DNA of 64,000 nucleotides from assembly GCF_000304315.1 (NCBI RefSeq), contig NC_018485.1:2140501-2204500 (forward strand). The letters run 5' to 3'. A program made the translations under genes and the position numbers. This document shows positions 3,003 to 19,864 of this stretch, one piece after another. This DNA comes from Methylocystis sp. SC2 (lineage in GTDB: Bacteria > Pseudomonadota > Alphaproteobacteria > Rhizobiales > Beijerinckiaceae). Below the pieces are notes generated by a model. The model made no database searches and had not been told where the DNA came from. It was given only the letters and a program-made list of their open reading frames with translations. Numbering within the stretch: the first letter of the stretch is position 1; every line of letters starts with the position of its first letter.

Positions 3003-3566
3003 ATGGAGCAGGTGCGAGAAGTTGCAGGACTTCTTGACGCCGGCGTCGTCGAGCGGCTCGCTCACGAGTTGAGTCAATTGCGTGAGCGCGAGGGACGGCT
3101 CTTTTTATTGGGCGTCGGGGGCAGCGCGGGGAATTGCGGCCATGCGGCGAATGATTTTCGAAAATTGTGCGGGATCGAAACCTATGCGCCGACGGACAAT
3201 GTTTCGGAGCTGACGGCCCGGGCTAATGATGAGGGATGGGATACGATTTTCACCGGATGGCTTGAAGTCAGCCGGCTGTCCAGCGGCGACGCAATCCTTG
3301 TCTTTTCAGTGGGTGGCGGGAACGCGGCGCGCAATGTCAGCGTCAATCTTGTGAAGGCCATCGATCTTGCAAAGCAGCGTGGCGCCCGCGTTTTTGGGAT
3401 CGTGGGCCGCGCCGACGGCCACGCCAGCGCCCATGGCGACGTGGTGGTCGTGATTCCGCAGGTCGACGCCGGCCGCGTGACGCCGCTTTCCGAAGCATTT
3501 CAGGCCGTCGTCTGGCATTGCCTCGTGTCTCATCCGGCTCTTCAGTCGCGCGGGACGAAGTGGTAG
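3003..3566 (+). CDS. SIS-domain phosphosugar isomerase, GmhA-like (sedoheptulose 7-phosphate isomerase type)
   Basis: A 187-residue single SIS domain. LFLLGVGGSAGNCGHAANDF is the phosphosugar-binding loop typical of GmhA-like isomerases, and VGGGNAARNVSVNLVKAID carries the second SIS loop. The C-terminal VTPLSEAFQAVVWHCLVSHP matches the helix that closes the active site. The expected reaction is sedoheptulose 7-phosphate to D-glycero-D-manno-heptose 7-phosphate, and the next genes encode the following steps. Start is uncertain: ATG 3003 has no good ribosome site, whereas AGGAG at 2970 is seven bases from an in-frame CTG at 2982. This is the first gene of the operon. Confidence 0.8.
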   Translation: MEQVREVAGLLDAGVVERLAHELSQLREREGRLFLLGVGGSAGNCGHAANDFRKLCGIETYAPTDNVSELTARANDEGWDTIFTGWLEVSRLSSGDAILVFSVGGGNAARNVSVNLVKAIDLAKQRGARVFGIVGRADGHASAHGDVVVVIPQVDAGRVTPLSEAFQAVVWHCLVSHPALQSRGTKW

Positions 3567-3575
3567 GAGCCAAGG

Positions 3576-4115
3576 ATGCCGCGACGCGCCGTTTTTTTGG
3601 ATCGCGACGGCGTTCTCGTGGTGCCGCAGTTTCGCGAAGGCCGCAGTTTCGCTCCGACGACTCTCGAGCAATTCGCGATCTATCCGGACGCGCCGAGTTG
3701 CGTTGCAAGGTTGAAGGAAGCAGGCTTCTTCACCGTCATCGTTACAAACCAGCCGGATGTGGGGGCGGGCCGAATCGCGCGTGAGGTCGTCGACGAAATG
3801 AGCCTCCGACTTCGCCAGGCGATGCCTCTGGATGCGATAAAGATCTGCTGCCATACAAGCGCGTGCGCCTGCCGCAAGCCGCAGCCTGGAATGTTGTTGG
3901 AAGCTGCGCGCGAACTTACGCTCGATCTCAAGGAGAGCTTCATGGTAGGCGATCGAGCGAGCGACATAGAAGCCGGCGCTGCGGCTGGGTGCCGCACCGT
4001 GTTCATAGATCTTGGCTATACGGCGGAACGGCCCCCCGAACGTCCGGATCGAATCGTCGGCTCGTTCTGCGAGGCCGCCGACTGGATCCTATCATTGCCT
4101 CAAAGAGACAGCTGA
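3576..4115 (+). CDS. gmhB: D-glycero-D-manno-heptose 1,7-bisphosphate 7-phosphatase
   Basis: A 179-residue HAD-superfamily IIIA phosphatase. FLDRDGVL (residues 7-14) holds the nucleophile and general acid Asp pair, VTNQPDVGAG is motif II, and MVGDRASDIEAG is motif IV. The CCHTSACACRKPQPG stretch is the zinc-binding Cys/His loop of the GmhB/HisB-N group. It removes the 7-phosphate from heptose bisphosphate on the way to NDP-heptose. It begins nine bases after the GmhA-like gene and precedes the transaldolase-like gene, so co-transcription is very likely. Histidinol phosphatase activity is the main alternative and is less likely in this setting. Confidence 0.85.
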   Translation: MPRRAVFLDRDGVLVVPQFREGRSFAPTTLEQFAIYPDAPSCVARLKEAGFFTVIVTNQPDVGAGRIAREVVDEMSLRLRQAMPLDAIKICCHTSACACRKPQPGMLLEAARELTLDLKESFMVGDRASDIEAGAAAGCRTVFIDLGYTAERPPERPDRIVGSFCEAADWILSLPQRDS

Positions 4116-4124
4116 AAGTCGCTC

Positions 4125-4898
4125 ATGTCGAAAATTTTCATCAAGCTCTTTGCCGACGGCGCCGATCTTGGCGAAATGATCGCCATGTATCGCGATCCGA
4201 GGATCGTCGGCTTCACGACGAATCCGACGCTGATGCGCCAAGCCGGCGTGGCCGATTACGAAACATTCGCGCGCAAGGCGCTCGCGGCGATTCCGGATCG
4301 TCCCATCTCGTTCGAAGTGTTCGCCGACGACTTCTCCGACATGGCGCGCCAGGCGCGCGCCATCGCCGGTTGGGGCCCGAACGTCAATGTGAAGATTCCC
4401 GTCGTCAATACGAAAGGCGAGTTCACCGGCCCTGTTCTGAGCGCGCTTTCCAAGGAAGGCGTGACGCTCAACGTCACCGCGATCATGACCGTGGAGCAGG
4501 TTCGCGACGTCGCCGCGGCGCTCGCGCCCGAAACGCCGGCGATTATTTCGGTCTTTGCCGGGAGAATCGCCGACACCGGCGTCGATCCTGTTCCTCACAT
4601 GAAGGCCTGCCGCGCGGCGCTTGCGTCGCGCCCGCGCGCGGAGCTGCTCTGGGCCAGCCCGCGCGAATTGCTGAACGTTTTTCACGCGCAGGAGGCGGGC
4701 TGCCATATCATCACCGCCACGCCCGGCATTCTTTCCAAGCTAGAGTTGGTCGGAAAGGATCTCACGCAGTTTTCTCTCGAGACGGTGCAAATGTTCTATC
4801 GCGACGCGACGGCTTCGGGATTCGAAATCGACGTTGCGCAGCAAGAATCGGCCGCCGCGGTCGGCGGGGTAAGCGACATACGCGAGGATGTTCGATGA
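4125..4898 (+). CDS. Transaldolase / fructose-6-phosphate aldolase-like protein
   Basis: A 257-residue TIM-barrel aldolase. The N-terminal GFTTNPTLMRQAGV block and the central VNVKIPVV, with the Schiff-base Lys, match the TalC/FSA branch. LNVTAIMTVEQV and SVFAGRIADTGVDP are the other conserved barrel strands. In this operon it sits between heptose phosphatase and epimerase genes. An attractive but unproven role is supplying sedoheptulose 7-phosphate, or a related ketose, to the GmhA-like isomerase, together with the split transketolase encoded further along. It overlaps the next gene by four bases (ATGA), indicating translational coupling. Confidence 0.8.
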   Translation: MSKIFIKLFADGADLGEMIAMYRDPRIVGFTTNPTLMRQAGVADYETFARKALAAIPDRPISFEVFADDFSDMARQARAIAGWGPNVNVKIPVVNTKGEFTGPVLSALSKEGVTLNVTAIMTVEQVRDVAAALAPETPAIISVFAGRIADTGVDPVPHMKACRAALASRPRAELLWASPRELLNVFHAQEAGCHIITATPGILSKLELVGKDLTQFSLETVQMFYRDATASGFEIDVAQQESAAAVGGVSDIREDVR

Positions 4899-5908
4899 CG
4901 CGACTGTTCGAACGTGTTTTCATCACCGGCGGCGCCGGCTATTGCGGGAGCCGTCTCGTTCCACAGCTCCTTCGCTCCGGTTACAAGGTGACCGTGTATG
5001 ACGTCATGTATTTCGGTTGTGACTTCCTGCCGAAAGACGACCCAAACCTGACCGTGATTCAGGGCGACATACGCGACCAGGCGAAGCTCGCCGCCGCGGT
5101 CGCCGGCCACGACGCTTTCTTGAGCCTCGCCTGCATCTCCAATGACGCCAGCTTCGAACTCGATGAACGGCTCTCGACCTCGGTGAATTTGGAGGCCTTC
5201 GAGCCGATGGTGCTCACGGCCAAGAACGCGGGCGTCAAGCGCTTCATCTATGCGTCTTCATCGTCGGTTTATGGCGTTTCCGACCAGCCCGAGGTGACGG
5301 AAGACCATCCGCTCGTGCCCCTGACGCTTTACAACAAATACAAGGGCATGTGCGAGCCGCTGCTCAACAAACACATCGACGACGGTTTCACGGGCGTCAC
5401 CTTCCGTCCGGCGACCGTGTGCGGCTACGCGCCGCGCCAGCGATTGGATCTCTCCGTGAACATTCTCACCAATCACGCCGTGAACAAGAACAGGATCACG
5501 GTGTTCGGCGGCTCGCAATTGCGACCGAACCTGCATGTTCAGGACTATGTCGACGCGGTGGAGATGTTTCTCCAGGCGCCTGCGGAAAAGATTCAAGGCG
5601 AGATCTTCAACGTCGGATATCAAAATCTCTCTTTGATGCAAATCGCCGAACTGGTTCGCAAGGTCGTGCTCGAAGAATATCCCGAACGCGGCGATCTCGA
5701 AATCGTGACGACGCCGAGCGACGATCTGCGCTCATATCACATCAATTCAGGCAAGATCGCACGCGTGCTGGGCTTTCAGCCGCGGCGCACGATCGAGGAC
5801 GCGGTGCGCGAACTCTGCGTCGCCTTCCGAGAAAATCGCTTGCCGAACAGCTTCGACGACGACTCCTATTTCAACGTCAAGCGGCTGCAAAGATTGAAAG
5901 CAGCATGA
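4895..5908 (+). CDS. NAD-dependent epimerase/dehydratase (extended SDR)
   Basis: A 337-residue extended short-chain dehydrogenase. The nucleotide motif is FITGGAGYCGSRL (about residues 9-21). The Ser of the triad is in YASSSSVYG, and the catalytic Tyr/Lys are in LTLYNKYKGMCE, so it looks active. NVGYQNLSLMQIAEL is the sugar-side C-terminal region. It likely epimerises, dehydrates or reduces a nucleotide-activated sugar in the cytoplasm. The ATG at 4895 overlaps the preceding stop; the end overlaps the next start in the same way. Substrate is unknown. Confidence 0.85.
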   Translation: MTRLFERVFITGGAGYCGSRLVPQLLRSGYKVTVYDVMYFGCDFLPKDDPNLTVIQGDIRDQAKLAAAVAGHDAFLSLACISNDASFELDERLSTSVNLEAFEPMVLTAKNAGVKRFIYASSSSVYGVSDQPEVTEDHPLVPLTLYNKYKGMCEPLLNKHIDDGFTGVTFRPATVCGYAPRQRLDLSVNILTNHAVNKNRITVFGGSQLRPNLHVQDYVDAVEMFLQAPAEKIQGEIFNVGYQNLSLMQIAELVRKVVLEEYPERGDLEIVTTPSDDLRSYHINSGKIARVLGFQPRRTIEDAVRELCVAFRENRLPNSFDDDSYFNVKRLQRLKAA

Positions 5909-6915
5909 ACGGCAAACCTATTGCTGTGGTGACAGGCGGCGCGGGCTTCATCGGGAGCCATATGGTCGACCTGCTGCTGGATCGCGGATTTTGCGTTCGC
6001 GTGATCGACGACTTGTCGGGCGGGCGCGAGGCGAATCTTGCGCATCATGCGCAGAACTCGGACCTCGCCTGTCATTGGAAAGATATACGCACGCTGGCGC
6101 CGGGTGATCCGATCTTCTCGGACTGCCGCTATGTTTTCCATTTCGCAGGCATTGGCGACATCGTTCCGTCAATCGAACGCCCGATCGAATATATGGACAT
6201 CAATGTCCAGGGAACGGTCCGCGTGCTCGAATGCGCGCGCGCCGCAAAGGTGAAAAAATTCGTCTATGCGGCGTCTTCATCCTGCTATGGCCTCGCCGCG
6301 ACGCCGACCCGCGAGGATCACCCGATCGCGCCGCAATATCCTTACGCTCTCTCAAAATATCAGGGCGAGCAAGCGGTGTTTCACTGGGGAAACGTCTACC
6401 GGCTCCCCGTCAATTCGATCTGCATATTCAACGCGTACGGCCTGCGCGTGCGCACCACGGGCGCCTATGGCGCCGTCTTTGGCGTCTTCTTTCGCCAGAA
6501 ACTCGCCGGCAAGCCGTACACCGTGGTCGGCGACGGGTCGCAATCACGCGACTTCATTTACGCAACGGACGTCGCCGAAGCGTTTCTCGCCGCCGCCGAA
6601 ACGGATATCGTCGGCGAGCGCTTCAATGTCGGCGCCGGCGCTCCGAAATCAATCAATCAACTCGTGTCCCTGCTCGGCGGCGACGTGGTCTATGTGCCTA
6701 AGCGGCCCGGCGAGCCCGATTGCACCTGGGCGGACATCACGAAGATTTCTACGCTTCTCCATTGGCGGCCGAAAGTTCCGTTTGAAGAGGGAGCGCCGAG
6801 GATGATGCAGCAGATACATCTTTGGCAGGATGCTCCGCTTTGGGATCCCGAGTCGATCGCAAAGGCGACGAAGACGTGGTTCGAATTTCTTGGAGGCGAC
6901 GCGGCTCGGATATGA
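5905..6915 (+). CDS. NAD-dependent epimerase, UDP-glucose 4-epimerase-like (extended SDR)
   Basis: A 336-residue extended SDR. VVTGGAGFIGSHMVDLL is the classical cofactor loop, SSSCYG carries the Ser, and YPYALSKYQGE carries the catalytic Tyr and Lys. VVGDGSQSRDFIYATDVAEA and RFNVGAGAPKSINQL are typical of GalE/WbpP-like nucleotide-sugar epimerases and dehydratases. It is translationally coupled to the previous gene (ATGA overlap at 5905-5908). A gap of about 95 bases with no gene follows before the nucleotidyltransferase-kinase. The likely role is a ring-carbon epimerisation or dehydration on the NDP-heptose made by this operon, but the substrate is inferred from context. Confidence 0.85.
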   Translation: MNGKPIAVVTGGAGFIGSHMVDLLLDRGFCVRVIDDLSGGREANLAHHAQNSDLACHWKDIRTLAPGDPIFSDCRYVFHFAGIGDIVPSIERPIEYMDINVQGTVRVLECARAAKVKKFVYAASSSCYGLAATPTREDHPIAPQYPYALSKYQGEQAVFHWGNVYRLPVNSICIFNAYGLRVRTTGAYGAVFGVFFRQKLAGKPYTVVGDGSQSRDFIYATDVAEAFLAAAETDIVGERFNVGAGAPKSINQLVSLLGGDVVYVPKRPGEPDCTWADITKISTLLHWRPKVPFEEGAPRMMQQIHLWQDAPLWDPESIAKATKTWFEFLGGDAARI

Positions 6916-7010: not shown

Positions 7011-8564
7011 ATGCCCAACAGCTCACTCAATCAACTCTATGGCCGCAAAATCAAGACGCCGGAAGAGTTGCGCGCAATCCTCGGTCCTATGCCGCGCGAA
7101 AAGCGCGCAATAATGTGCCACGGCGTTTTCGATGTGGTTCATCCCGGCCACATTCGGCATCTCGCTTACGCCAAGGGCAAAGCCGATATTCTGATTACGA
7201 GCATAACAGCCGACGCGCACATCACGAAGGGGCTGCATCGGCCGCACGTGCCGCAGGACTTGCGAGCGCTCAATCTCGCCGCTCTCGAGATGGTCGACTA
7301 TGTGGTCGTGGACGTCAATGCGACGCCGCTCGCCAATCTGAAACTCATTCAGCCTGACCTCTTCGCAAAAGGCTACGAATACACAACGACCGGGATGCCT
7401 CCGAAGACCGCGGAGGAAGCGGAAGTCGTGCGCGCCTATGGCGGCGAGATCGTCTTCACGCCCGGCGACATCGTTTATTCCTCTTCGAAGCTCATTGAAC
7501 TCGAAGCTCCGAAGCTTCGCTTCGAAAAGCTCCAAATCATCATGGAGAGAAAAGGAATTTCCTTCGAAGACCTGCGCCGCGCGATTAACGCGCTTTCCGA
7601 CTATCGCGTTCATGTGGTCGGCGACACGATCGTCGACAGCTACACCAATTGCGTCATGATCGGAGGCCAGACCAAGACCCCGACCTTGTCCGTTCTGTTT
7701 GAGTCGAAAACGGACTATGCAGGAGGAGCGGCGATCGTCGCGAAGCACTGCCGCGCCGCCGGAGCGAATGTTTCTTTTTGCACCGTGCTGGGCGATGACG
7801 CCGACGCCGAATTCGTTCTGAACGACCTTCAGCAGGCCGGCGTCGCTGTCTCGGTCGTGACGGAACGCGGTCGTCCCACGGTGAACAAGAACGCAATCGT
7901 CGTCGGCGGCTATCGGCTTTTGAAAGTCGACACGCTCGACAACAACTCAATCACCGACGCCATGTGCGCCAAGATGACCGATACGGTGCGCAACAGCGGC
8001 GCCGATGCGGTGATCTATGCCGATTTCCGTCACGGTATCTTCAATCGCCGCACGATACCCAATTTCATCGAGGCGATTCCGGCGAATGCCTATCGCGTCG
8101 CCGACAGCCAGGTCGCGAGCCGCTGGGGAAACATCACTGAATTTCGCGGCTTCGATCTGATTACGCCGAATGAGCGCGAGGCGCGATTTGCGCTGGCCGA
8201 TCAGGACTCAGGCATTCGACCTCTGGCGTCCGCGATATTCGATGAGGCGCAATGTAAATTGCTGATCCTTAAGCTCGGGCAGCGCGGGGTGCTCGTCTGC
8301 CAAAGCGCAGATCACGAATCGCTGGATAGTTTTTTCGTGCTCGACAGCTTTGTCGAGACTCTCGTCGACCCCGTCGGCGCCGGCGATGCGCTCCTTGCAT
8401 ATTCGACGCTCGCCATGCTCGCCACGAAGGACCCGACGCAGGCGACCATCATCGGTCTGCTCGCGGCCGCTTGCGAATGCGAATGCGACGGCAATACGCC
8501 CATTGCGCCCAAGCAAATTTTAAAAAAGCTGGACGCGGTGGAAAAACAAACGAATTACGTGTAG
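7011..8564 (+). CDS. Bifunctional nucleotidyltransferase-PfkB kinase, HldE-like with reversed domain order
   Basis: A 517-residue fusion. Residues about 30-160 form a cytidylyltransferase-like domain with the HPGH motif (44-47) in CHGVFDVVHPGHIRHL. Residues about 190-510 form a PfkB/ribokinase domain with GGAAIVAKHC and the catalytic GAGD at 456-459. In HldE the kinase is N-terminal and the adenylyltransferase C-terminal, so this protein has them swapped. With the upstream GmhA- and GmhB-like genes it completes a path heptose 7-phosphate to heptose 1,7-bisphosphate to heptose 1-phosphate to NDP-heptose. ATG 7011 is preferred over an in-frame TTG at 7005. The nucleotide used (ATP, CTP or GTP) cannot be read from the sequence. 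Confidence 0.85.
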   Translation: MPNSSLNQLYGRKIKTPEELRAILGPMPREKRAIMCHGVFDVVHPGHIRHLAYAKGKADILITSITADAHITKGLHRPHVPQDLRALNLAALEMVDYVVVDVNATPLANLKLIQPDLFAKGYEYTTTGMPPKTAEEAEVVRAYGGEIVFTPGDIVYSSSKLIELEAPKLRFEKLQIIMERKGISFEDLRRAINALSDYRVHVVGDTIVDSYTNCVMIGGQTKTPTLSVLFESKTDYAGGAAIVAKHCRAAGANVSFCTVLGDDADAEFVLNDLQQAGVAVSVVTERGRPTVNKNAIVVGGYRLLKVDTLDNNSITDAMCAKMTDTVRNSGADAVIYADFRHGIFNRRTIPNFIEAIPANAYRVADSQVASRWGNITEFRGFDLITPNEREARFALADQDSGIRPLASAIFDEAQCKLLILKLGQRGVLVCQSADHESLDSFFVLDSFVETLVDPVGAGDALLAYSTLAMLATKDPTQATIIGLLAAACECECDGNTPIAPKQILKKLDAVEKQTNYV

Positions 8565-8568: not shown

Positions 8569-9519
8569 ATGAGAGTGATCGTTGTCGGCCTCGGGGTGCA
8601 GGGACATAAAAGGCGTGCGTTTGCCGGCGAAGACTTCGTCGCGACCGTCGACCCCTACAATGCCGCTGCGGACTATCGAGAAATAAAAGACATTCCGCTC
8701 GATAGCTTCGATGCGGCGCTGTGCTGCATCCCCGATGAGCCGAAATTCGAAATCCTCGAATACCTGCTGGCGAATGGAAAGCACGCGTTGGTCGAAAAGC
8801 CGCTATGGACGCGCACGGCCTCGGAAATTGACGAACTCGAGCGCCTCGCGCGCGCCGCGAACGTCGTTTGCTACACGGCTTACAATCATCGCTTCGAACC
8901 GCATTTCGTGCGCATGCGCGATCTCATTGCGTCGGGCGAACTGGGGCGCATCTATTCCTGTCGCATGTTCTACGGCAATGGAACGGCGCGCCTCGTGCGA
9001 AATTCGGAATGGCGCGATAGCGGGGCCGGCGTGCTTCCGGATCTTGGCTCGCACCTTCTGGACACATGCCGCTTCTGGTTCGGCGACATCGACGCGAGAT
9101 TCAAACTTGTCGCCGTCAACTGCTTTGAGAACAAGTCGCCCGATCACGTCATTATCGGCAATGAAGACGGCGCATGTCGCATCGAGCTCGAAATGACGCT
9201 GCTGTCTTGGCGCAATCACTTCGCTTGCGATATCTTTGCGGAAAACGGCAGCGCTCACATTGAATCGCTGTGCAAATGGGGTCCGTCAACTTTTACGATG
9301 CGACGGCGAATTCTTCCGTCGGGTCGCCCGCCGGAGCAGGCGGTCACGCTCGTGCAGGACGATCCGACTTGGAAGGTCGAATACGAGCATTTCAAGGGCA
9401 TGTGCCAATCTCGAGCACAGACCGACCTCTCAAACGACATATGGCTGCGAGACGTGTTGGCGCAACTCGAGGATGTGGTTCTCGAACAATTGCGGCGACG
9501 CCGCGGGCAAGACGCATGA
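8569..9519 (+). CDS. Gfo/Idh/MocA-family oxidoreductase
   Basis: A 316-residue NAD(P)-dependent sugar oxidoreductase. The N-terminal VIVVGLGVQGHKRRAF is the cofactor loop, HALVEKPLW contains the family EKP motif, and GVLPDLGSHLLDTCRFWFGD supplies the catalytic D-x3-H segment. Members oxidise or reduce hydroxyl/keto groups of sugars and their nucleotide derivatives. It starts four bases after the kinase fusion and overlaps the UGDH-like gene at its end. The likely task is redox modification of the heptose intermediate; this is from context only. Confidence 0.85.
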   Translation: MRVIVVGLGVQGHKRRAFAGEDFVATVDPYNAAADYREIKDIPLDSFDAALCCIPDEPKFEILEYLLANGKHALVEKPLWTRTASEIDELERLARAANVVCYTAYNHRFEPHFVRMRDLIASGELGRIYSCRMFYGNGTARLVRNSEWRDSGAGVLPDLGSHLLDTCRFWFGDIDARFKLVAVNCFENKSPDHVIIGNEDGACRIELEMTLLSWRNHFACDIFAENGSAHIESLCKWGPSTFTMRRRILPSGRPPEQAVTLVQDDPTWKVEYEHFKGMCQSRAQTDLSNDIWLRDVLAQLEDVVLEQLRRRRGQDA

Positions 9520-12403: not shown

Positions 12404-13399
12404 ATGTCGAATAAGACCTATGCAATCCTTGGCGGCGGAGGCAGCTTCGGCATTCACGCCGCATTCTGGCTGCTCGATCACGCTAACCCGCGAAAAGTGA
12501 TCGGCATTGGTCGCAATCCGCTGCGGGAGCGCGCGTTCTCGCTGGATATCGATCAGCGCGACGGTTACGAATATCATGCTCGTCACGTGACCTACGAGAT
12601 CGATCTGCTGCTCGAACTGCTCGATCGCGAAAAGCCGGAGATCATTGTCAATTTCGCAGCGCAGGGAGAGGGCGCCGTCTCCTGGAAACACTCCTGGCGT
12701 TTTTTTGAAACCAATTCGATGGCGCTCGCGCGCCTTTGCGAAGAACTGATGAAACGGGATTGGTTGGAGCGTTTCATTCAGATCGGGACGTCGGAAATGT
12801 ACGGGTCCGTCGATCGCCCCGTGACGGAGGACGAGCCGATCAAGCCGTCGAGTCCTTACGCCGCCTCCAAGGTCGCTTTCGACATGCATCTTCTGTCGAT
12901 AGCGCGATTCCTCAAGTTCCCGATGAATATTTTGCGGCCGTCGAACGCCTATTGCCCCGGGCAGCTTTTGCATCGCGTCGTGCCCAAGGCGATCGTCTCG
13001 GGCCTGCTTGGCGAGAAACTACCCTTGCATGGCGGCGGCAAGGCGGAAAAATCCTATATTCATGCGCGCGATCTCGGCCGGGCGATTCATCTCGTGGCGG
13101 AAGGCGCGCCGCTCGGCGCCGTCTATAACGTCGGTCCGAGCGAGCCAACGTCTATTCGGCGCGTCGTCGAGCTTTGCGCGGAGGCTGTCGGCGTTCCGTT
13201 CGAACAATTGTGCGAGGTCAGCGGCGATCGACTCGGGCAGGACTCTCGCTACTGGCTCGACTCATCAGCGATCAAGCGCGACGTGGGCTGGGAGCCCCGC
13301 ATTGACTGGGCGGAGGGCTTGTCCGAAATGGTCGACTGGGCGCGAGCGAATCTTCCCGCTTTGAAACGCGCGCCTCGCGATTACACGTTAAGGGCATGA
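12404..13399 (+). CDS. NAD-dependent epimerase/dehydratase, nucleotide-sugar 4,6-dehydratase-like
   Basis: A 331-residue extended SDR. The N-terminal loop is AILGGGGSFGIHAAFWLLD, a slightly unusual G-rich motif. The triad is complete: IQIGTSEMYGS gives the Thr/Ser and SSPYAASKVAFD gives Tyr and Lys. TSEMYG with a nearby acidic pair resembles GDP-mannose and dTDP-glucose 4,6-dehydratases, which generate 4-keto-6-deoxy sugars. LHGGGKAEKSYIHARDLGRAI and YNVGPSEPTSIRRVVEL are the sugar-binding regions. In this locus it could dehydrate an NDP-heptose to a 6-deoxy-4-keto form, which would feed the reductases encoded nearby. That role is inferred. Confidence 0.85.
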   Translation: MSNKTYAILGGGGSFGIHAAFWLLDHANPRKVIGIGRNPLRERAFSLDIDQRDGYEYHARHVTYEIDLLLELLDREKPEIIVNFAAQGEGAVSWKHSWRFFETNSMALARLCEELMKRDWLERFIQIGTSEMYGSVDRPVTEDEPIKPSSPYAASKVAFDMHLLSIARFLKFPMNILRPSNAYCPGQLLHRVVPKAIVSGLLGEKLPLHGGGKAEKSYIHARDLGRAIHLVAEGAPLGAVYNVGPSEPTSIRRVVELCAEAVGVPFEQLCEVSGDRLGQDSRYWLDSSAIKRDVGWEPRIDWAEGLSEMVDWARANLPALKRAPRDYTLRA

Positions 13400-13429: not shown

Positions 13430-14296
13430 ATGACAAACGGACTCATGCTATGTCAGCGCGACGAGCGACGGCGCAACAGTTTCGACGCCACTGCGGCGAA
13501 GGAACGCTGCCGCCGCTATCGCCGGCGCATTCTGGAAATCTCGCGACAAGTTTCCGCGCTGCATGTGGCGCCGGCCTTTTCCTGCGTCGAGATCGTCGAC
13601 TTGCTGTATAATGGCGCGATGCGGCGGGACGCGAACGGTGCGTATTGCGACATCTTTCTGATGTCCAAGGGTCACGGCTGCATGATCCAATATGTCGTGC
13701 TCGAGGAGCAAGGCGTATTGTCGCGCGCGGACCTCGACGCCTATTGCAAGCCCGGCGGGCGGCTCGGCGCGCATCCCGATTACGGCACGCCGGGGATTGC
13801 GGCTTCGACCGGATCGTTGGGACATGGGTTGGGAATCGCGGTCGGACAGGCCTTCGCCGAAAAGCTGAAAGGGAGCGACGCGCGGGTCTATTGCGTCCTA
13901 TCGGATGGCGAATTTCAGGAGGGCTCGACCTGGGAGGCGATGATGGCCGCCGCAAATCTCGGTCTCTCCAATCTTGTCGCGCTGATGGACAACAATGATT
14001 TTTCCGGCCTCGAACGCATCAGCGAGGGTCACAAGGCCTTTTACCCCCTGCTCGACAAAGCCCGCGCTTTTGGATTTAGCGTGGCTGAAGTCGCTGGACA
14101 TGACAGCGCGGAGATTTTCGCGGCGCTCGACAACGACTGTTCGAATGACGCAACCCCTCGCCCGAGGTTGATCGTTTGTCGCACGACGAAGGGCAAGGGC
14201 GTTTCGTTCATGGAGAGCGTTCCGATCTGGCATTACCGCTCGCCCAATTCGGAGGAATATGCGCAGGCGTTGAACGAGATCGAGAACGCCCCATGA
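13430..14296 (+). CDS. Transketolase, N-terminal (TPP-binding) subunit
   Basis: A 288-residue protein covering the first transketolase domain. SKGHGCMIQYVVLEEQG and GSLGHGLGIAVGQAFAEK are substrate/TPP pocket segments; the TPP-Mg motif is CVLSDGEFQEGSTWEAMMAA followed by LMDNNDFSG. The full enzyme is split into two genes in this operon, the partner starting at 14293 with a four-base overlap. Together they could transfer two-carbon units between phosphoketoses and aldoses, making sedoheptulose 7-phosphate, or act on a ketosugar made by the locus as some sugar-operon transketolase pairs do. Confidence 0.88.
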   Translation: MTNGLMLCQRDERRRNSFDATAAKERCRRYRRRILEISRQVSALHVAPAFSCVEIVDLLYNGAMRRDANGAYCDIFLMSKGHGCMIQYVVLEEQGVLSRADLDAYCKPGGRLGAHPDYGTPGIAASTGSLGHGLGIAVGQAFAEKLKGSDARVYCVLSDGEFQEGSTWEAMMAAANLGLSNLVALMDNNDFSGLERISEGHKAFYPLLDKARAFGFSVAEVAGHDSAEIFAALDNDCSNDATPRPRLIVCRTTKGKGVSFMESVPIWHYRSPNSEEYAQALNEIENAP

Positions 14297-15213
14297 GGAA
14301 TAGATTTGCGGATACATTCTATGAATTGGGCAGGGAGGACGAGCGCCTGTGCCTTGTCGTAGCGGACATATCTCCTGCCGGCAGCATCGAGAAGTTTCGC
14401 ACGAAATTTCCGCAGCGCTTCGTGAATACCGGAGTCGCCGAGCAGATCATGATCGGCATGACCGCCGGAATGGCGCAGCGTGGTCTGCGGCCCTTCGCCT
14501 ACACGATTGCGACCTTCTCGCTCTACCGCCCGTTTGAAATGGTGCGAGACGATCTGTGCTACCAAAATCTATGCGTCACCGTGGTCGGCATCGGCGGCGG
14601 CCTCACCTATTCGACGCTCGGCGCGACGCATCACGCGCAAGAAGACGTAGCGATCGCCTGCGCGATTCCTAACCTCACAGTTATCGCGCCTTGCGACCCG
14701 GCGGAAACCGAAGCGGCGACGCGCTGGTGCGCCACGCAGGAGCATGGGCCGGTCTATCTGCGCCTCGGCAAGGCGGGAGAGCCGGACTTCACCAGCAACG
14801 CGCCGCAACCCTGGACCTTCGGCAAGCTGCGGCGAATTCGCCCGGGCGCGGACGTTTGCATTCTTACTTACGGTCCTATCATGAAACGCGCGTGGGCCGT
14901 GGCCGAGCGGCTCGAGGCGGCCGGCCGCAGCGTGGCGATCAATTCGGTTCACACATTGAAGCCGCTCGACGTCGGCGGAGTCGCCGACGTGCTGACGCAA
15001 TTTTCCTCTGTCGTCGTTATCGAGGAATGTGCGCCGACCGGCGGTCTCGCAATGCAAGTCAAAGCGCTCGCCTTCGATATCGGCGCACGAACAAGGCTCC
15101 TTTCATTCACGCTTAAGGATGAGTTCATTCACTGCTACGGAAGCCATGACGACATCCTCGACGCGCACGGTCTTTCGGTCGAGGATATGACGCGGCGAAT
15201 TCTCAGTGAGTGA
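14293..15213 (+). CDS. Transketolase, C-terminal (Pyr) subunit
   Basis: A 306-residue protein with the pyrimidine-binding and C-terminal domains. RFVNTGVAEQIMIGMTAGMA holds the conserved catalytic Glu that activates thiamine diphosphate, and IGGGLTYSTLGATHHAQEDVA is the second cofactor/substrate segment. ADVCILTYGPIMKRAWAVAE begins the C-terminal domain. The start codon overlaps the stop of the N-terminal subunit, so a 1:1 complex is expected. The split two-subunit form is common in archaea and in accessory sugar loci, whereas housekeeping transketolase is a single chain. Confidence 0.88.
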   Translation: MRNRFADTFYELGREDERLCLVVADISPAGSIEKFRTKFPQRFVNTGVAEQIMIGMTAGMAQRGLRPFAYTIATFSLYRPFEMVRDDLCYQNLCVTVVGIGGGLTYSTLGATHHAQEDVAIACAIPNLTVIAPCDPAETEAATRWCATQEHGPVYLRLGKAGEPDFTSNAPQPWTFGKLRRIRPGADVCILTYGPIMKRAWAVAERLEAAGRSVAINSVHTLKPLDVGGVADVLTQFSSVVVIEECAPTGGLAMQVKALAFDIGARTRLLSFTLKDEFIHCYGSHDDILDAHGLSVEDMTRRILSE

Positions 15214-15736
15214 CCGCGCCCCAGACTATTTCCTCAGCGAGGGACCGCTGACGCCGGGCGATGCGGCGGTCGCGCTGCTTGTCCTCGACGACGGTCGCTA
15301 TCTCATGCAGCTTAGGGATGAGAAGCCCGGCATTTTTTTTCCAGGCCATTGGGGCCTCTTCGGCGGCGGCGTCGAACCCGGCGAAGGGGCCGAGGCGGCG
15401 TTGCGGCGCGAACTGCGGGAAGAACTGGGATACGACGCCCAGACCATGGTCTGGTTTACGACGATGACGCTCGATTTCACCGCCTTAGGCGGCGGCCCTG
15501 TCGAGCGCCATTTCTACGAGACGCCGCTTGCGGCCGCACAGATGGAGAAGCTTATCCTCGGAGAGGGGCGCGCGATGCGCGCGTTCGAGGGCCCCGATCT
15601 GCTTGCGAGGGAACGCGTGACGCCATACGACGCATTTGCGCTCTGGATGCATCTGACGCGCGCGAGCCATGAGCGCGCGCGGCGCTCGGTGGAATTGAGT
15701 GGAGAAGCGCGGCGGCTCCAGGAATTTCCTCGATGA
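15206..15736 (+). CDS. Nudix hydrolase
   Basis: A 176-residue protein with a complete Nudix box: GGGVEPGEGAEAALRRELRE followed by ELGY, matching Gx5Ex7REUxEExGU. The start is GTG at 15206, inside the end of the transketolase gene; the end overlaps the methyltransferase start. Nudix enzymes cleave nucleoside diphosphates linked to another group. In a nucleotide-sugar operon it could hydrolyse an unwanted or damaged NDP-sugar, or transfer a mannosyl-type residue as GDP-mannose-linked Nudix proteins do. No specific substrate can be assigned. Confidence 0.85.
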   Translation: MSDRAPDYFLSEGPLTPGDAAVALLVLDDGRYLMQLRDEKPGIFFPGHWGLFGGGVEPGEGAEAALRRELREELGYDAQTMVWFTTMTLDFTALGGGPVERHFYETPLAAAQMEKLILGEGRAMRAFEGPDLLARERVTPYDAFALWMHLTRASHERARRSVELSGEARRLQEFPR

Positions 15737-16896
15737 CCCTAATGCTGTCGGCGGGCCATGCTTGTCAGGTTTGCGGATCGGAAAGATTGCGCGAACTCGT
15801 GTCCTTCCGCGAGTTGCCGCGTGTCACCTCTGACGCTCGACCGTGGCCAGCAGGCGGAAGGCTTGCGTGTTGTGAAGAGTGTGGCGCCGCTCAAAAAATC
15901 GTGGACGACGCCTGGCGCGCGGAGATCGCGCAGATCTACCGGAATTACGAATTATACCACCAGTCTCAGGGCGACGAGCAACCGATCTTTTCGGGTCAAT
16001 CGACCGGGCCGCAACCTCGCTCCGCCTTGATAATAGACTATCTCGATGGCGCGCTCACGCTTCATGAGGACGCGCGCGTCCTGGATTTCGGATGCGGAAC
16101 CGGCTCGGCGTTGAAGACCTTTTCAGGTCGCCATCCTCGCTGGCGCCTTTACGGCGCCGAAATCCGCGACGATGCGCGCGAGCGTCTTGCACAACTGCCG
16201 AATTTCGTCGAGCTCTATACCTGCGATCTTGACGCGATCGACGCGCGCTTCGACCTCGTCACCCTCATCCACTCGCTTGAGCATCTCATCTCGCCGGTCG
16301 ACACATTGATCGAGCTGCGGCGTCTCATCGGGGACGATGGGCGCGTCTTCGTGCAGGTTCCGGATTGCGCAATCACGCCATTCGATTTCGTTATCGTCGA
16401 TCATCTCACGCACTTCACTGTCGAGTCGCTCCGCCGCCTGGGCGAACGCGCTGGCTACGAGACTGTCGCAGCCCACGACGCCTTGCTCCCCAAGGAATTG
16501 AGCTGGATCGGTAAAGCCGTCGCATCCCGCGACGGACCCGCGGCGACGCCTCACAAGGGCATGGATGAAATCCGCGCTCAGGTCGACTGGCTGAACGCGC
16601 AAGTGCGCAACTCGCGAGAGCTCGCGCGTTCGAGCGCGAATTTCGGTATTTTTGGCACCTCCATCTCCGGAACGTGGCTCGCGGGCGCGGTCGGTGACGA
16701 GGTCGACTTTTTCGTGGACGAAGACCCTCAGCGCATCGGGCGAGAGCACATGGGCAGGCCCATCATCGCTCCTGCCAACGTCGCCGAGAATTCCGATGTC
16801 TTCGTTCCGCTGATTCCGAAGGTCGCCGCCGCAGTAAAATCCCGCTTGGCGAGACAGGGCGTGCGTTACCACGCTCCCGCGGACATCGTCAGATGA
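15733..16896 (+). CDS. Zinc-ribbon class I methyltransferase (sugar C-methyltransferase type)
   Basis: A 387-residue protein with the three-part layout of TylC3/NovU-like sugar methyltransferases: N-terminal zinc ribbon with CQVCGSERLRELV and CCEECGAAQ, central SAM domain with VLDFGCGTGSALKTFSG, and a C-terminal Rossmann-like domain (GIFGTSISGTWLAGAVGDEV then FVDEDPQRIGREHMG). Relatives methylate C3 or another carbon of 4-keto NDP-sugars. This fits a 4-keto intermediate from a dehydratase in the same operon. It overlaps the genes on both sides by four bases. Confidence 0.85.
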   Translation: MTLMLSAGHACQVCGSERLRELVSFRELPRVTSDARPWPAGGRLACCEECGAAQKIVDDAWRAEIAQIYRNYELYHQSQGDEQPIFSGQSTGPQPRSALIIDYLDGALTLHEDARVLDFGCGTGSALKTFSGRHPRWRLYGAEIRDDARERLAQLPNFVELYTCDLDAIDARFDLVTLIHSLEHLISPVDTLIELRRLIGDDGRVFVQVPDCAITPFDFVIVDHLTHFTVESLRRLGERAGYETVAAHDALLPKELSWIGKAVASRDGPAATPHKGMDEIRAQVDWLNAQVRNSRELARSSANFGIFGTSISGTWLAGAVGDEVDFFVDEDPQRIGREHMGRPIIAPANVAENSDVFVPLIPKVAAAVKSRLARQGVRYHAPADIVR

Positions 16897-17825
16897 GCGC
16901 CAATGCCAGCGCGCGATATTGCGTCATCGGAGGAAGCGGAGCTATTGGCTCCGCTTTGATGAAAAGCTTGAGCGCGCAACGAAAAGAAGCGATCGCGTCG
17001 ACCAGACGTCAGCCGGTCGATCGCCAAAACGAATTTTATCTCGACCTCGGCGCCGATCTGCCCGAGCTTTCATTCTCAGCGCGCGACGTCGTCATCCTTA
17101 CGGCGTCGATGACGCGACTGGCGGAGTGCCGATCGGAGCCGGAACGCGCTCGAAGAGTGAACGTCGACGCGCAGGTTCTTATTGCGGAGCAAGCGGTGAA
17201 GAAGGGCGCTTTCGTCGTTTTTCTTTCGACGAACCAAGTGTTCGACGGAACCAAGAGCGGCGTGGGTCCCGAGGAGCCGCGCTCGCCTCGATCCGTCTAC
17301 GGAAAGCTGAAGGCCGAGGCGGAATCGGCATTGTCGCGCTTGGGCGATTCTGTCGCGATCGTCCGCCTGAGCAAAGTCGTTGGTCCGCATCTCGATTTAT
17401 TCCAGCGATGGCGCCGCGAATTGTCGCGGGGCGAAACCATCGAGGCCTTCGACGATCTGCTTTTGGCGCCAATCGCGATGGCGAAGGTCGTGGCAGGGGT
17501 CGAGCTTATCGGTCTTAGGCGGCTGGGCGGCGTCTGGCATCTGGGCGGTTCCGACGAAATCAGCTATCTGCAAGCAGGACGCCACCTTGCTTGCCGTCTT
17601 GGCGCTGACGCGCGATTGGTCGTCTCGGTCAGCGCCGCGAAGGCGGGAATTCCTGTCGAGGAGCGGCCGCCGCGGGTCTCCATGGCGCCGGGTAACCTAG
17701 AAACCGCTATTGGCGTTCGAATCGGCGACGCCTTAGAGGAACTCGACATCGGGTTGGGGTTTGCCGATTGGACGCGAACCGATATTTGTTCTCGAAGCGG
17801 CGAGATTATCCCTCAAGCGATGTAG
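16893..17825 (+). CDS. RmlD-like NDP-4-keto-sugar reductase (SDR)
   Basis: A 310-residue protein of the dTDP-4-dehydrorhamnose-reductase type. CVIGGSGAIGSALMKSL is the cofactor loop, VVFLSTNQVFDGTKSG is the characteristic RmlD 'STDxVFDG'-like strand, and SVYGKLKAEAE gives the catalytic Tyr and Lys. Such enzymes reduce the 4-keto group left by a dehydratase. It is coupled to the upstream methyltransferase gene, so the order methylate then reduce is plausible. Four bases separate it from the next methyltransferase. Confidence 0.8.
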   Translation: MSANASARYCVIGGSGAIGSALMKSLSAQRKEAIASTRRQPVDRQNEFYLDLGADLPELSFSARDVVILTASMTRLAECRSEPERARRVNVDAQVLIAEQAVKKGAFVVFLSTNQVFDGTKSGVGPEEPRSPRSVYGKLKAEAESALSRLGDSVAIVRLSKVVGPHLDLFQRWRRELSRGETIEAFDDLLLAPIAMAKVVAGVELIGLRRLGGVWHLGGSDEISYLQAGRHLACRLGADARLVVSVSAAKAGIPVEERPPRVSMAPGNLETAIGVRIGDALEELDIGLGFADWTRTDICSRSGEIIPQAM

Positions 17826-17829
17826 AATC

Positions 17830-18525
17830 ATGACGGATCAGGTGGAGCGCGAAGGCGAAAAGCAATACGCGGAATTTGTCGCCGAGATTCGCAAGCACGG
17901 CCATCAGCGTATGGGTTTGATGACGAGCTGGGCCTATCTCGACGATCCCAAGCGCCTCGCTTTTATGATGGCGCGTTACAAATTCGTGGCGAAGATGCTC
18001 GAGGGAGCCGACCACGTTCTCGAGGTTGGCTGCGGCGACGGGTTTGGAACGAGGATCGTAGCTCAGGCGGTCAGGAAAGTGACGGCCGTTGATTTCGACC
18101 CGGAATTTATCGACGACGCTCGATCTGTCGCCGGCGATCGTTACCCCATTTCGTTTCACCGCCACGACATGGTTGCGGCCCCTTTTCCCGATCGTTTTTC
18201 GGGCGCCTATAGTCTCGATGTTCTCGAACATATCGATCGCGCCAACGAACACCGGTTTATTTCAAATATCGTAGCGTCACTGACGCAAGACGGAGTTTGC
18301 GTCATCGGCGCGCCATCGCTCGAATCGCAGGCCTATGCGTCGCGGATGTCTCGTTTGGGCCATGTGAACTGCAAGACCCAGGCCGAGCTGAAAGACACGA
18401 TGCTTCGCCACTTTCGAAACGTCTTCATGTTCGGCATGAACGACGAAGTTCTTCATACGGGTTACGCAAAGATGACGCATTACAACATCGCGTTATGCGC
18501 CGGGCCGGTCGCGGCGAATAGTTAG
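17830..18525 (+). CDS. Class I SAM-dependent methyltransferase
   Basis: A 231-residue methyltransferase. Motif I is VLEVGCGDGFGTRIVAQAV, motif II VDFDPEFIDDA, and the motif IV region is GAYSLDVLEHI. ATG 17830 is close to the previous stop and removes an implausible N-terminal extension read from the preceding gene. It is the last gene of the tightly packed part of the sugar operon. The likely product is an O- or C-methyl group on the locus sugar, but the acceptor is not determined by sequence. Confidence 0.82.
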   Translation: MTDQVEREGEKQYAEFVAEIRKHGHQRMGLMTSWAYLDDPKRLAFMMARYKFVAKMLEGADHVLEVGCGDGFGTRIVAQAVRKVTAVDFDPEFIDDARSVAGDRYPISFHRHDMVAAPFPDRFSGAYSLDVLEHIDRANEHRFISNIVASLTQDGVCVIGAPSLESQAYASRMSRLGHVNCKTQAELKDTMLRHFRNVFMFGMNDEVLHTGYAKMTHYNIALCAGPVAANS

Positions 18526-18634
18526 TGGACCGAGACGGATACGCCGGCTCGTCGCTCGCGCGATAGGGTCTTCTGGATTAATTGGAACGAACGCTATTAT
18601 TCGCTTGCAAACTTAAGGGACGGGATCAATTGGG

Positions 18635-19864
18635 ATGAATGGCGATCGAACAGGCCTCACCGAACAAAAGTTGGGGCGTCACGGTCTTTATTTTTATCCA
18701 ATTTATGCCCTTTTGGCGCGAATCCTCGGCCGCTTGGGGTATCGCTTTCTGCACACCCATATCTGGCTGATCGAAGATTTCGGCCAGCTCGCGATGGACC
18801 CGGACGTCTATTTAAAGCGGCAAATACTCTCGGGACGAAAGGTCAAACCAATCCTCCTGGTTGACGGTCGCACGCCCGCCAACGAGGCGCTTTTGGCGCA
18901 TTGGACGCGTTATATTCATGTCGTGCGCTCACGCGCGATGAATTCCCTGCTGCGGCCATTCTTGCAGTTTCCGGAGGTCGTCGACGTTATTCCGGCCTAT
19001 TCCATTGCGCGGGGGGGCGCGTCGCATAATCACGAAATTCAGCGCCTCTGGGGTGACCGGCCTCCGCTTTTGCAGCTTTCCGAAGCGGAAATCGCCAAGG
19101 GAGAGGAGCAGCTGCGGGCCTGGGGCATGCCGGAAGGGGCTTGGTTCGTATGCGTGCATTCGCGTGAAGGCGGCTTCAAGCCCGTCCACGACTGGGCGCA
19201 TAATTTTCGAAATTCACGGATCGACGGTTACCAAGAGGCCATGCGGGAAATCGTTGCTCGCGGCGGCTGGTGCATCAGGGTCGGCGACGCGACGATGGAG
19301 CCGCTGGCGCCGGCCCCAGGGATTGTGGATTATGCGCGGTCGCCTGCGAAAAGCGCTTGGATGGATGTTTTTCTCCTCGCGCGGTGTCGCTTTCTGCTCG
19401 GCAATACCTCTGGGGTTTTCATCATCTCCGGAATTTTTGGCAAGCGGTCGGCTCTCGCCAATATGGCGCCGATTGGCGCGGCCTATTCGCTTTTTCCGGG
19501 CGATATAACCATTCCCAAATTGCTTCAGGACGCGAGCGGACGCATTTTGTCTTTTGGCGAGGCGCTGGCGGACGCCTCGTCCGAATACCACCTTGCCACG
19601 CAGTTCGCCGAACGGGGCTTACGCCATATTGACAATACGCCGCAGGAAATCGGTGAACTTGTCCTGGAAATGATGGATCGGCTCGAAGGAACATTCGTCG
19701 AAGAGCCGGAAGACGCCGAATTGCAGGCGCGGTTCCGCGCCTTGATGCGGCCGGAGCATTATTCGTGGCATTCCGCAGGTCGAATCGGGGCCGCTTTCCT
19801 GCGTCGCCATCGCAATCTGCTCGACGCGCAGGCGCCCCTTGAGAAAGACGCCCATGGCGTCTAG
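18635..19864 (+). CDS. TIGR04372-type putative glycosyltransferase
   Basis: A 409-residue protein. It resembles the TIGR04372 group of putative glycosyltransferases: HSREGGFKPVHDWAHNFRN, the central 'IREIVARGGWCIRVGDATM'-like strand-turn, and FLLGNTSGVFIISGIFGK, which looks like a nucleotide-sugar pocket. An N-terminal hydrophobic stretch (YFYPIYALLARILGRLGY) may associate with the membrane. It lies 109 bases after the packed operon, so it may have its own promoter. It is the only glycosyltransferase candidate in the locus. Its TAG stop is provided by the dispersed repeat beginning at 19862. Confidence 0.75.
   Translation: MNGDRTGLTEQKLGRHGLYFYPIYALLARILGRLGYRFLHTHIWLIEDFGQLAMDPDVYLKRQILSGRKVKPILLVDGRTPANEALLAHWTRYIHVVRSRAMNSLLRPFLQFPEVVDVIPAYSIARGGASHNHEIQRLWGDRPPLLQLSEAEIAKGEEQLRAWGMPEGAWFVCVHSREGGFKPVHDWAHNFRNSRIDGYQEAMREIVARGGWCIRVGDATMEPLAPAPGIVDYARSPAKSAWMDVFLLARCRFLLGNTSGVFIISGIFGKRSALANMAPIGAAYSLFPGDITIPKLLQDASGRILSFGEALADASSEYHLATQFAERGLRHIDNTPQEIGELVLEMMDRLEGTFVEEPEDAELQARFRALMRPEHYSWHSAGRIGAAFLRRHRNLLDAQAPLEKDAHGV

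Follow-up and report, generated by a model that had tools for sequence, protein, structure and literature searches.

Most of the known aldoses longer than heptoses come from a small number of antibiotics and O-antigens. In the lincomycin pathway, LmbN is SIS-like, LmbL is UDP-glucose-dehydrogenase-like and LmbZ is Gfo/Idh-like. The enzyme kinds encoded by genes N, K, R, L, M, Z, P and O of the lincomycin octose pathway are tabulated in excerpts of two papers (PMC4351081; PMC12945683), and LmbR is described, in the excerpt of a third, as forming an octulose from fructose 6-phosphate or sedoheptulose 7-phosphate plus ribose 5-phosphate (PMC5854111). Two-carbon branching has also been described: according to an excerpt of PMC4753412, a sugar C2 branch is set by the ThDP enzyme YerE, and a two-gene pair is proposed in antibiotic clusters (AviB1/B2, Pau11/12). 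Here we describe a conserved gene set, probably for a sugar of this higher-carbon type, that occurs in surface-glycan clusters across many groups of bacteria; where the related genes carried names, these were piecemeal ones such as ‘heptose’ or ‘transaldolase’. The open-access literature yielded no account of the set, most subscription papers lying outside the scope of the search. The reading that we favour, with a probability of roughly one half, is that the operon makes a modified NDP-octose for a surface glycan by way of an octulose 8-phosphate formed by its dedicated transaldolase, and that in about half of such operons the sugar is extended or branched by two carbons.

The operon was found in the methane-eating bacterium Methylocystis sp. 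SC2, in a stretch of 64,000 nt that was analysed whole (the window). Between positions 3003 and 19864 there are 18 closely packed ORFs, all present and all on the plus strand, with intergenic gaps of −8 to +32 bp except for 95 bp between SDR5 and the fusion gene and 109 bp ahead of the last gene. Thirteen of these form a core: SIS, HAD, transaldolase, two SDRs, a nucleotidyltransferase-kinase fusion, Gfo/Idh, NDP-sugar dehydrogenase, SDR, methyltransferase, SDR and the two halves of a split transketolase. Methylocystis silviterrae has all 18 genes in the same order (the first part in locus L049, the rest in L190), the 13 core genes are under purifying selection (dN/dS 0.05–0.24), and a large part of the core order is found again in other families of the class and, going by record labels, across several phyla; most of these loci come from metagenome bins, for which the assigned organism may be incorrect. 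Taken together, the order in M. silviterrae, the dN/dS values and the recurrence of the core order elsewhere argue that the operon is not a chance grouping. The initial annotation had described it from the DNA alone as an operon for a modified, activated heptose, with a GmhA-like isomerase, GmhB, a kinase/nucleotidyltransferase fusion, a transaldolase-like enzyme and a split transketolase; in the wider sense of an operon devoted to an activated sugar of higher carbon number and equipped with such enzymes this is supported, and its gene names agree with the domains found in profile searches of the 18 proteins. The gene set, its conservation and the residue changes described below are observed.

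Part of the locus sample consists of the best 80 of 583 confirmed matches, and the residue census counts hits above identity thresholds that we set. One locus without transketolase (L087/L150) was counted twice in this census, making the counts one too high for the transaldolase, SIS, HAD, SDR4, SDR5, fusion, dehydrogenase and SDR9; a recount drops L087 and includes L190, which holds the rest of the M. silviterrae operon. Two other duplicate pairs (L028/L111 and L029/L055) were each counted twice in the census of architectures, while the residue census, the dehydrogenase Cys check and the transaldolase tree omitted L111 and L055.

The operon begins with a GmhA-like SIS aldose-ketose isomerase of 187 aa (3003..3566; PF13580, 28.9 bits), a GmhB-like HAD-IIIA phosphatase of 179 aa (3576..4115; TIGR01656 above cut-off, PRK08942 102 of 178 bits) and a dedicated TAL_FSA transaldolase of 257 aa (4125..4898; TIGR02134, 338.7 bits against a curated cut-off of 281.95). 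The adjacency of these three genes is conserved across loci, and four of the 120 listed homologues are HAD-transaldolase fusions (P0084, P0086, P0097 and P0117, by precomputed Pfam domains). In the isomerase, active-site residues H47, D51, E164 and H172 are present in 90/90 relatives read (one pair counted twice), and D51 aligns with a Glu in GmhA structures. In the transaldolase, which was aligned to solved transaldolases, D11, E64, K90, T118 and R147 are present in 130/130 relatives (one pair counted twice), or 129 for the Lys and Glu once the duplicate is removed; we take the Lys to be the Schiff base and the Arg the phosphate ligand, with the Asp and Glu also belonging to the site of this fold. 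Transaldolase genes without any core partner nearby (L031, L036, L041, L043, L044, L115 and L118) indicate that the enzyme can serve other routes, which counts against the octose reading.

Two architectures were distinguished among 107 loci. In type A (57/107; 55/105 without the two duplicates) the trio accompanies an HldE-like fusion, and in type B (16/107) it accompanies a GHMP kinase and a separate nucleotidyltransferase. As to a single origin of the two types, on a tree of 92 transaldolases the A/B label changes six times, against 22.9 when shuffled, with well-supported branches forcing only one change. The type B locus of Lawsonia encodes SIS (55% identical to the operon SIS), HAD, transaldolase, NDP-sugar dehydrogenase, SDR, Gfo/Idh, GHMP kinase and nucleotidyltransferase, which, compared by enzyme kind with the excerpts of PMC4351081 and PMC12945683, comes close to the complement of enzymes in the lincomycin octose pathway. 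By enzyme kind and not by sequence, the Methylocystis operon likewise shares with what those excerpts give of the lincomycin/celesticetin pathway (LmbR, N, P, K, O, M, L and Z) a transaldolase, isomerase, kinase, phosphatase, nucleotidyltransferase, epimerase/SDR, dehydrogenase and oxidoreductase. Unlike the lincosamide pathway, it has an HldE-like fusion in place of a separate GHMP kinase and guanylyltransferase (separate in type B), lacks an aminotransferase (LmbS), and has, in addition, a split transketolase and further SDRs and methyltransferases; a profile search of the 18 operon proteins returned no aminotransferase family. Several observations count against the octose parallel: the Lawsonia SDR is FabG-like and not an extended epimerase, the Lawsonia-type Gfo/Idh and dehydrogenase occur in 10/16 and 6/16 type B loci, respectively, at thresholds that we set, and type A and type B proteins share only 29% identity (dehydrogenases) and 25% (Gfo/Idh). 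The kinase and nucleotidyltransferase of the Lawsonia locus are HddA-like and MurU/HddC-like, recalling the GDP-D-glycero-D-manno-heptose route (HddA/HddC), but they score far under the HddA and HddC cut-offs (178 of 600 and 88.8 of 300 bits), and the window has no such genes.

The sixth gene encodes the fusion (7011..8564; PF01467 at residues 36–145, PF00294 at 201–499), with HxGH in 67/67 and the kinase Asp in 63/63 relatives (one pair counted twice). Translation could alternatively begin at an in-frame TTG at 7005. The initial annotation was right that a kinase/nucleotidyltransferase fusion is present, but the nucleotidyltransferase comes first and the PfkB kinase second, the reverse of HldE; similarly, genes 1 and 2 are like GmhA and GmhB, as it had named them, and gene 6 is like HldE, yet their NCBIfam scores fall far below the cut-offs (46 vs 209, 102 vs 178 and 144 vs 521 bits, respectively). 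The operon thus resembles the ADP-L-glycero-D-manno-heptose pathway (GmhA, HldE, GmhB, HldD) in the logic of its isomerase, C1 kinase/nucleotidyltransferase and HAD phosphatase, and differs from it in these scores, in the fusion order, in having its own transaldolase and in the changed SIS active-site residue. The best HldD score (TIGR02197) among the operon proteins, that of SDR5, is 96.1 bits, below the cut-off of 274.6. A further difference is that the operon coexists with a canonical HldE, above cut-off, in 15/17 related type A genomes, so that the fusion is not a replacement for canonical HldE; in the window genome, however, a search for canonical HldE found none, and the operon could therefore be the sole ADP-heptose-like route there.

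The remaining core genes would modify the activated sugar. Two extended, epimerase/reductase-like SDRs (both PF01370) precede the fusion: SDR4 (4895..5908), with the catalytic S in 65/65 readable relatives and Y/K in 66/66, and SDR5 (5905..6915), with S/Y/K in 65/65 (one pair counted twice in each). The fusion is followed by a Gfo/Idh/MocA oxidoreductase (8569..9519; PF22725, PF01408) and by gene 8, an NDP-sugar dehydrogenase of the UDPG_MGDP_dh type (9516..10832; TIGR03026, 208.6 bits, cut-off 189.8) in which the catalytic Cys is replaced by Asn262. Asn occupies this position in 58/58 type A relatives read (one pair counted twice) and Thr in 16/16 type B enzymes, whereas other NDP-sugar dehydrogenases of the same loci keep the Cys (8/8). 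Loss of this residue led us to reject an acid-forming role for gene 8, whether as a UDP-sugar 6-dehydrogenase or in UDP-uronic acid synthesis. Next come an RmlD-like SDR (SDR9, 10832..11713) in which, by profile search and residue census, the catalytic Tyr/Lys are replaced and an HGxMH motif is found, a class I methyltransferase that recurs in the core (MT10, 11715..12371; PF08241) and a 4,6-dehydratase-like SDR (SDR11, 12404..13399; TIGR01181, 166.9 bits, below cut-off) with a T-S-E motif in 20/20 relatives.

The core ends with the transketolase, encoded as an N-terminal half (13430..14296; Transketolase_N, PF00456; nearest solved chain 6yak, a split transketolase) and a C-terminal half with an altered phosphate/acceptor pocket (14293..15213; PF02779 and PF02780; nearest solved chain 6yaj). 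The ThDP site, catalytic Glu and donor histidines are kept (27–29 sequences read per position), but S385A, H461G and R520K are found in 27/27 sequences and D469L in 26/26 readable ones, at positions (E. coli numbering, mapped by alignment) that we take to form this pocket. The Arg358-equivalent is kept in 25/25, so some phosphate binding may remain. Because the pocket residues are replaced, we prefer to see the enzyme as a two-carbon transferase that would act on the sugar; and because the gene is, in addition, absent from about half of related operons (present in 22/42 type A loci with at least 9 kb downstream, 20/40 without duplicates, and in 0/16 type B loci), we place it outside the core route. 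Since the sugar-donor histidines are kept, a ketol C2 unit is to be expected, unlike for AviB1/B2, said in the excerpt of PMC4753412 to use pyruvate and an acetyl unit.

Our proposal for the pathway, of which we infer the substrates, chain length and order of steps, is as follows. The transaldolase would move a dihydroxyacetone unit from fructose 6-phosphate or sedoheptulose 7-phosphate to a pentose phosphate, giving octulose 8-phosphate, which the SIS isomerase would convert to octose 8-phosphate; the kinase half of the fusion would then phosphorylate C1, the HAD enzyme would remove the terminal phosphate and the nucleotidyltransferase half would make the NDP-octose. The Cys-less dehydrogenase could oxidize one hydroxyl to a carbonyl (two electrons, no acid), with further reworking by the Gfo/Idh enzyme, SDRs and methyltransferase, and the split transketolase, where present, may transfer a two-carbon unit from a ketose to the sugar carbonyl as an extension or branch. 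Finally, the products of local genes would methylate and reduce the sugar, and the TIGR04372 enzyme would transfer it. The product would be an NDP-activated sugar with more than six carbons, most likely an octose, which is favoured over a heptose by analogy with the lincomycin octose pathway.

A self-contained NDP-heptose pathway, as the initial annotation proposed, would have the transketolase and transaldolase supply sedoheptulose 7-phosphate and the SIS, fusion and HAD enzymes convert it to an ADP- or CDP-heptose, which is then modified. Genes 1, 2 and 6 have GmhA, GmhB and HldE among their closest named relatives, the type B kinase resembles HddA and its nucleotidyltransferase, less closely, HddC of GDP-heptose synthesis, and the window genome is without canonical HldE; when homologous operons were checked for loss of the ‘heptose’ genes, the SIS, HAD and fusion were mostly kept, leaving a heptose-like route unrefuted. 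Sedoheptulose 7-phosphate, however, is a housekeeping metabolite, and it needs no dedicated genes because elsewhere in the genome there are another TAL_FSA gene (80 bits) and a 696-aa frame that bears transketolase motifs. These other copies, the changed pocket and the absence of the transketolase from about half of type A operons speak against a supply independent of housekeeping enzymes, and the canonical HldE of 15/17 type A genomes against the pathway as a whole, which we consider a credible but unlikely alternative. We judge it improbable that the transaldolase instead makes a sugar that differs in length or stereochemistry (for instance a heptulose or octulose built on a non-standard acceptor such as arabinose 5-phosphate or an L-sugar phosphate) for an ordinary modified-heptose O-antigen, with the transketolase run in reverse to shorten a ketose: the Asp in place of GmhA's Glu in every SIS pocket read would fit an altered substrate, and the transaldolase keeps its catalytic residues, but such acceptors are purely hypothetical and we know of no pathway that uses one. 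That the transketolase and transaldolase are merely spare pentose-phosphate enzymes carried in a polysaccharide cluster is very improbable, and we reject it, since, although these pocket residues are retained in a known split transketolase (6yaj/6yak), here gene order is conserved across groups, HAD-transaldolase fusions occur and the pocket is changed in every copy read.

If the octose reading is correct, a TIGR02134 transaldolase with SIS and HAD genes beside a Cys-less NDP-sugar dehydrogenase would be a signature predicting octose or decose glycans, transketolases would act on nucleotide sugars, and these loci would be candidates for orphan C8–C10 sugars. A more speculative extension, which we think rather unlikely, is that the operon is a chain builder, in which a pentose phosphate plus C3 gives a C8 sugar that is activated, oxidized by the Cys-less dehydrogenase and then given C2 by the split transketolase on the NDP-sugar, yielding a linear, branched or cyclized ten-carbon monosaccharide, with SDR9 (HGxMH for YxxxK) perhaps taking part in a carbon-skeleton step. 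This would amount to a widespread, unrecognized class of decose pathway and a possible source of C10 surface sugars like bradyrhizose, whose ten carbons match C8 + C2. In the excerpt of PMC4743980, the bradyrhizose genes are called unknown and the bradyrhizose O-antigen cluster of Bradyrhizobium ORS285 is placed at some 44 kb from rfaL. Large Rhodopseudomonas-family genomes, probably Bradyrhizobium, carry a type A cluster of roughly eleven genes (L138–L141). In four type A genomes (G495, G668, G650 and G487), the cluster and a Wzy_C gene beside canonical HldE, which we took to be rfaL, are on different contigs; within about 60 kb either side of this Wzy_C gene, G495 and G668 gave no transaldolase or transketolase match at E 1e-5, their weak fusion matches there being canonical HldE, and in G764 and G697 a search with (partial) rfaL proteins found nothing up to about 80 kb from the type A cluster. 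With rfaL not nearby in these genomes, which may not include the published strains, identification of the type A cluster as the bradyrhizose cluster is not supported.

The final five genes look like local additions. They encode a NUDIX hydrolase (15206..15736; PF00293; 94% identical in M. silviterrae), a methyltransferase (15733..16896; PF13489; 97%), an RmlD-like reductase with YGKLK intact (16893..17825; PF04321; 92%), a second methyltransferase (17830..18525; PF13649; 96%) and a TIGR04372 family glycosyltransferase (18635..19864; 228.9 bits, cut-off 45; 93%), and the flanking genes include glycosyltransferases and Wzm/Wzt-like exporters. Reaction-centre genes were present in two of six genomes searched (four type A, two type B), both of them type A.

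The operon at 3003-19864 of the window, which spans positions 2140501-2204500 of a 3.77 Mb genome on one contig, is best read as encoding a pathway to an NDP-sugar of the octose type, in which a two-carbon step is optional. Its 18 ORFs lie on one strand, most of them overlapping or no more than 32 bp apart, with exceptions of 95 bp and 109 bp, and the order of all 18 is preserved in Methylocystis silviterrae, the nearest named relative (transaldolase identity 94%), so that the operon noticed in the initial annotation is confirmed. Between these two genomes the 13 core genes have dN/dS values of 0.05-0.24, the value for the last core gene being taken over 199 of 306 codons. Protein domains were assigned with Pfam and NCBIfam. 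A search with the transaldolase model gave no TIGR02134-type match in three genomes from other genera of the same family, and the operon is therefore patchy in its distribution. A published description of this gene set was not found in the open literature.

The distribution of the core genes was examined across 289 genomes sampled evenly from the class, to which the TIGR02134 transaldolase cut-off was applied. Twenty-six genomes exceeded it, two more scored 259-266 bits and the next scored 112, a drop which shows that the family is well separated within the class. When 27 stretches fetched around these transaldolases were searched with all 18 operon proteins, a recurring order was found: SIS (the GmhA-like isomerase), HAD (the GmhB-like phosphatase), TAL (the transaldolase), SDR4, SDR5, NTK (the nucleotidyltransferase-kinase fusion), Gfo/Idh, dehydrogenase, SDR9, MT10, SDR11 and the two transketolase halves, TKN and TKC. 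The gene-order comparison suggested at the outset thus yields a core running from SIS to TKC, with losses and some inversions (e.g. loci L020, L022, L035 and L042). Seventeen of the 27 stretches were of the core-operon kind; sixteen of them include the fusion, which for the remaining one (L033) lies on a different contig. The same order was seen again in a second set from named records, mostly metagenome bins, comprising the best 80 of 583 confirmed matches. The last five genes of the window operon, of which the final one encodes a TIGR04372 glycosyltransferase, are seldom present in other loci and are treated here as local tailoring genes. A second transaldolase group from the Rhodopseudomonas family (L154-L157) scored about 258-276 bits against TIGR02134; core partners were not recognizable near these genes.

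Two architectures were distinguished among 107 loci (two pairs duplicated), 80 of which are the best 80 of the 583 confirmed matches. Type A, with the fusion, accounted for 57 loci, and type B, with a GHMP kinase and a separate nucleotidyltransferase instead, for 16; the remaining 34 were of neither type, many lying on short contigs and some having the transaldolase alone. Type A records are labelled Pseudomonadota, Acidobacteriota, Nitrospirota, Myxococcota, Planctomycetota, Actinomycetota, Thermodesulfobacteriota and Bipolaricaulota. Type B clusters also occur in bins labelled Methanoregula and Methanoperedens (L108 and L123), reflecting either archaeal occurrence or mislabelled contigs. The type B cluster on a Lawsonia intracellularis plasmid (L046:10706-19057) reads SIS-HAD-transaldolase-(membrane protein)-NDP-sugar dehydrogenase-SDR-Gfo/Idh-GHMP kinase-nucleotidyltransferase; identity to the window proteins is 55% for SIS and 59% for TAL, but only 29% for the dehydrogenase and 25% for Gfo/Idh. 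Among the 16 type B loci, the thresholds that we set recognized the Lawsonia-type Gfo/Idh in 10 and the Lawsonia-type dehydrogenase in 6. The Lawsonia kinase is closest to HddA and the nucleotidyltransferase to MurU, with HddC lower. The two types parallel the two known routes of heptose activation, by a bifunctional HldE-like enzyme or by a GHMP kinase plus nucleotidyltransferase.

That the fusion is simply a spare HldE is argued against by the canonical HldE nucleotidyltransferase domain, which was over cut-off in 15 of 17 type A genomes beside an operon fusion scoring 82-102 bits. The two exceptions were G118, with a canonical-type match of 179.4 against a cut-off of 181.5, and the fragmented genome G099, with a partial match of 76 bits. 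Counting on the other side is the window genome itself, in which the operon fusion (93 bits) is the only HldE-type match.

The proposal that the operon makes an NDP-heptose without housekeeping enzymes is only partly supported, since a dedicated supply of sedoheptulose 7-phosphate is not required: the window genome has a second TAL_FSA gene and a separate transketolase outside the operon. Of the 26 class genomes that passed the cut-off, 15 also matched the transaldolase model a second time, more weakly. Since sedoheptulose 7-phosphate is a common metabolite, a heptose route does not require a dedicated transaldolase. In the lincomycin route, according to passages in PMC5854111, LmbR joins fructose 6-phosphate or sedoheptulose 7-phosphate with ribose 5-phosphate to give an octulose. 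The gene kinds for that octose, as far as the relevant parts of PMC4351081 and PMC12945683 enumerate them, are a transaldolase, isomerase, kinase, phosphatase, guanylyltransferase, epimerase, dehydrogenase and oxidoreductase, a list that the Lawsonia cluster nearly matches, although its SDR, unlike the lincomycin set, is FabG-like; no aminotransferase adjoins the Lawsonia cluster. This near-match in enzyme kinds to the lincomycin octose pathway is found in an intracellular gut bacterium. In four of 120 listed homologues (P0084, P0086, P0097 and P0117, by precomputed Pfam domains), HAD and TAL make up a single protein of 322-433 aa, indicating that phosphatase and transaldolase belong to one route. 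We therefore favour an octose over a heptose as the chain length by analogy with lincomycin, and the octose-forming step itself is one that we infer.

Where UDP-sugar dehydrogenases have their catalytic Cys, 58/58 type A proteins (one pair counted twice) have Asn and 16/16 type B proteins have Thr; the Cys is present in 8/8 other NDP-sugar dehydrogenases from the same loci, a count that leaves out three low-identity matches with Asn or Thr and the operon-type motif (L107, L149 and L150). The simplest reading is that the Cys-less enzyme would perform a single two-electron oxidation. SDR11 has a T-S-E motif, as 4,6-dehydratases do, in 20/20 copies, and SDR4 and SDR5 retain Ser-Tyr-Lys. SDR9 (10832-11713) has an SDR fold, with Lys replaced by His in 45/45 copies and Tyr by His in 36, nine having Tyr (one pair counted twice); most copies carry a conserved HGxMH-type motif where the catalytic Tyr-x-x-x-Lys would stand, and its role is possibly non-redox.

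The operon transketolase pair, which is closest to the split transketolase of Carboxydothermus, was aligned to the 696-aa frame of the genome's own transketolase and to 6yaj. The ThDP site and donor histidines are retained. Four residues, numbered and assigned roles as in E. coli transketolase, are replaced: S385 by Ala (27/27), H461 by Gly (27/27), D469 by Leu (26/26 readable) and R520 by Lys (27/27); the equivalent of Arg358 is retained in 25/25, which cautions against assuming a full loss of phosphate contacts. Of 42 type A loci that extend 9 kb or more downstream, 22 have the pair (20/40 without duplicates). None of the 16 type B loci has it, and L033 is the only locus of neither type that does. 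Because the phosphate contacts at the replaced residues are lost and the gene is optional, a transketolase acting late on the sugar appears, judging from these residues, to be the better explanation. According to the sections of PMC4753412 concerned, a two-gene system is the proposed source of the C2 branch of avilamycin and of that of paulomycin, YerE adds the branch of yersiniose, and AviB1/B2 reportedly use pyruvate; in contrast, the histidines retained in the operon transketolase would suggest that a ketose is the donor.

Around type A clusters at 19 chosen loci, 88 flanking ORFs were listed and 85 scanned; among these are genes for glycosyltransferases, sugar-nucleotide enzymes and Wzm/Wzt-like exporters. 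In one genus, probably Bradyrhizobium, the transaldolase was over cut-off in 13 of 265 genomes; eight of these were read, six being type A (L138-L141, L177/L178 and L185/L186) and two type B (L142 and L144). In the six large type A genomes the cluster lies away from rfaL, and comparison of locations did not match these clusters to the published bradyrhizose cluster. Two of four type A genomes tested from this probable Bradyrhizobium group have reaction-centre genes. The idea of a C10 sugar is retained only as the boldest reading. Elsewhere in the window, ten sampled genes were mostly housekeeping or export genes. A mannose-1-phosphate guanylyltransferase/mannose-6-phosphate isomerase-type protein is encoded at 52371-53798 (+), about 32 kb from the operon, and an Rfam ffh sRNA match at 27958-28009 (-) adjoins the SRP54 gene.
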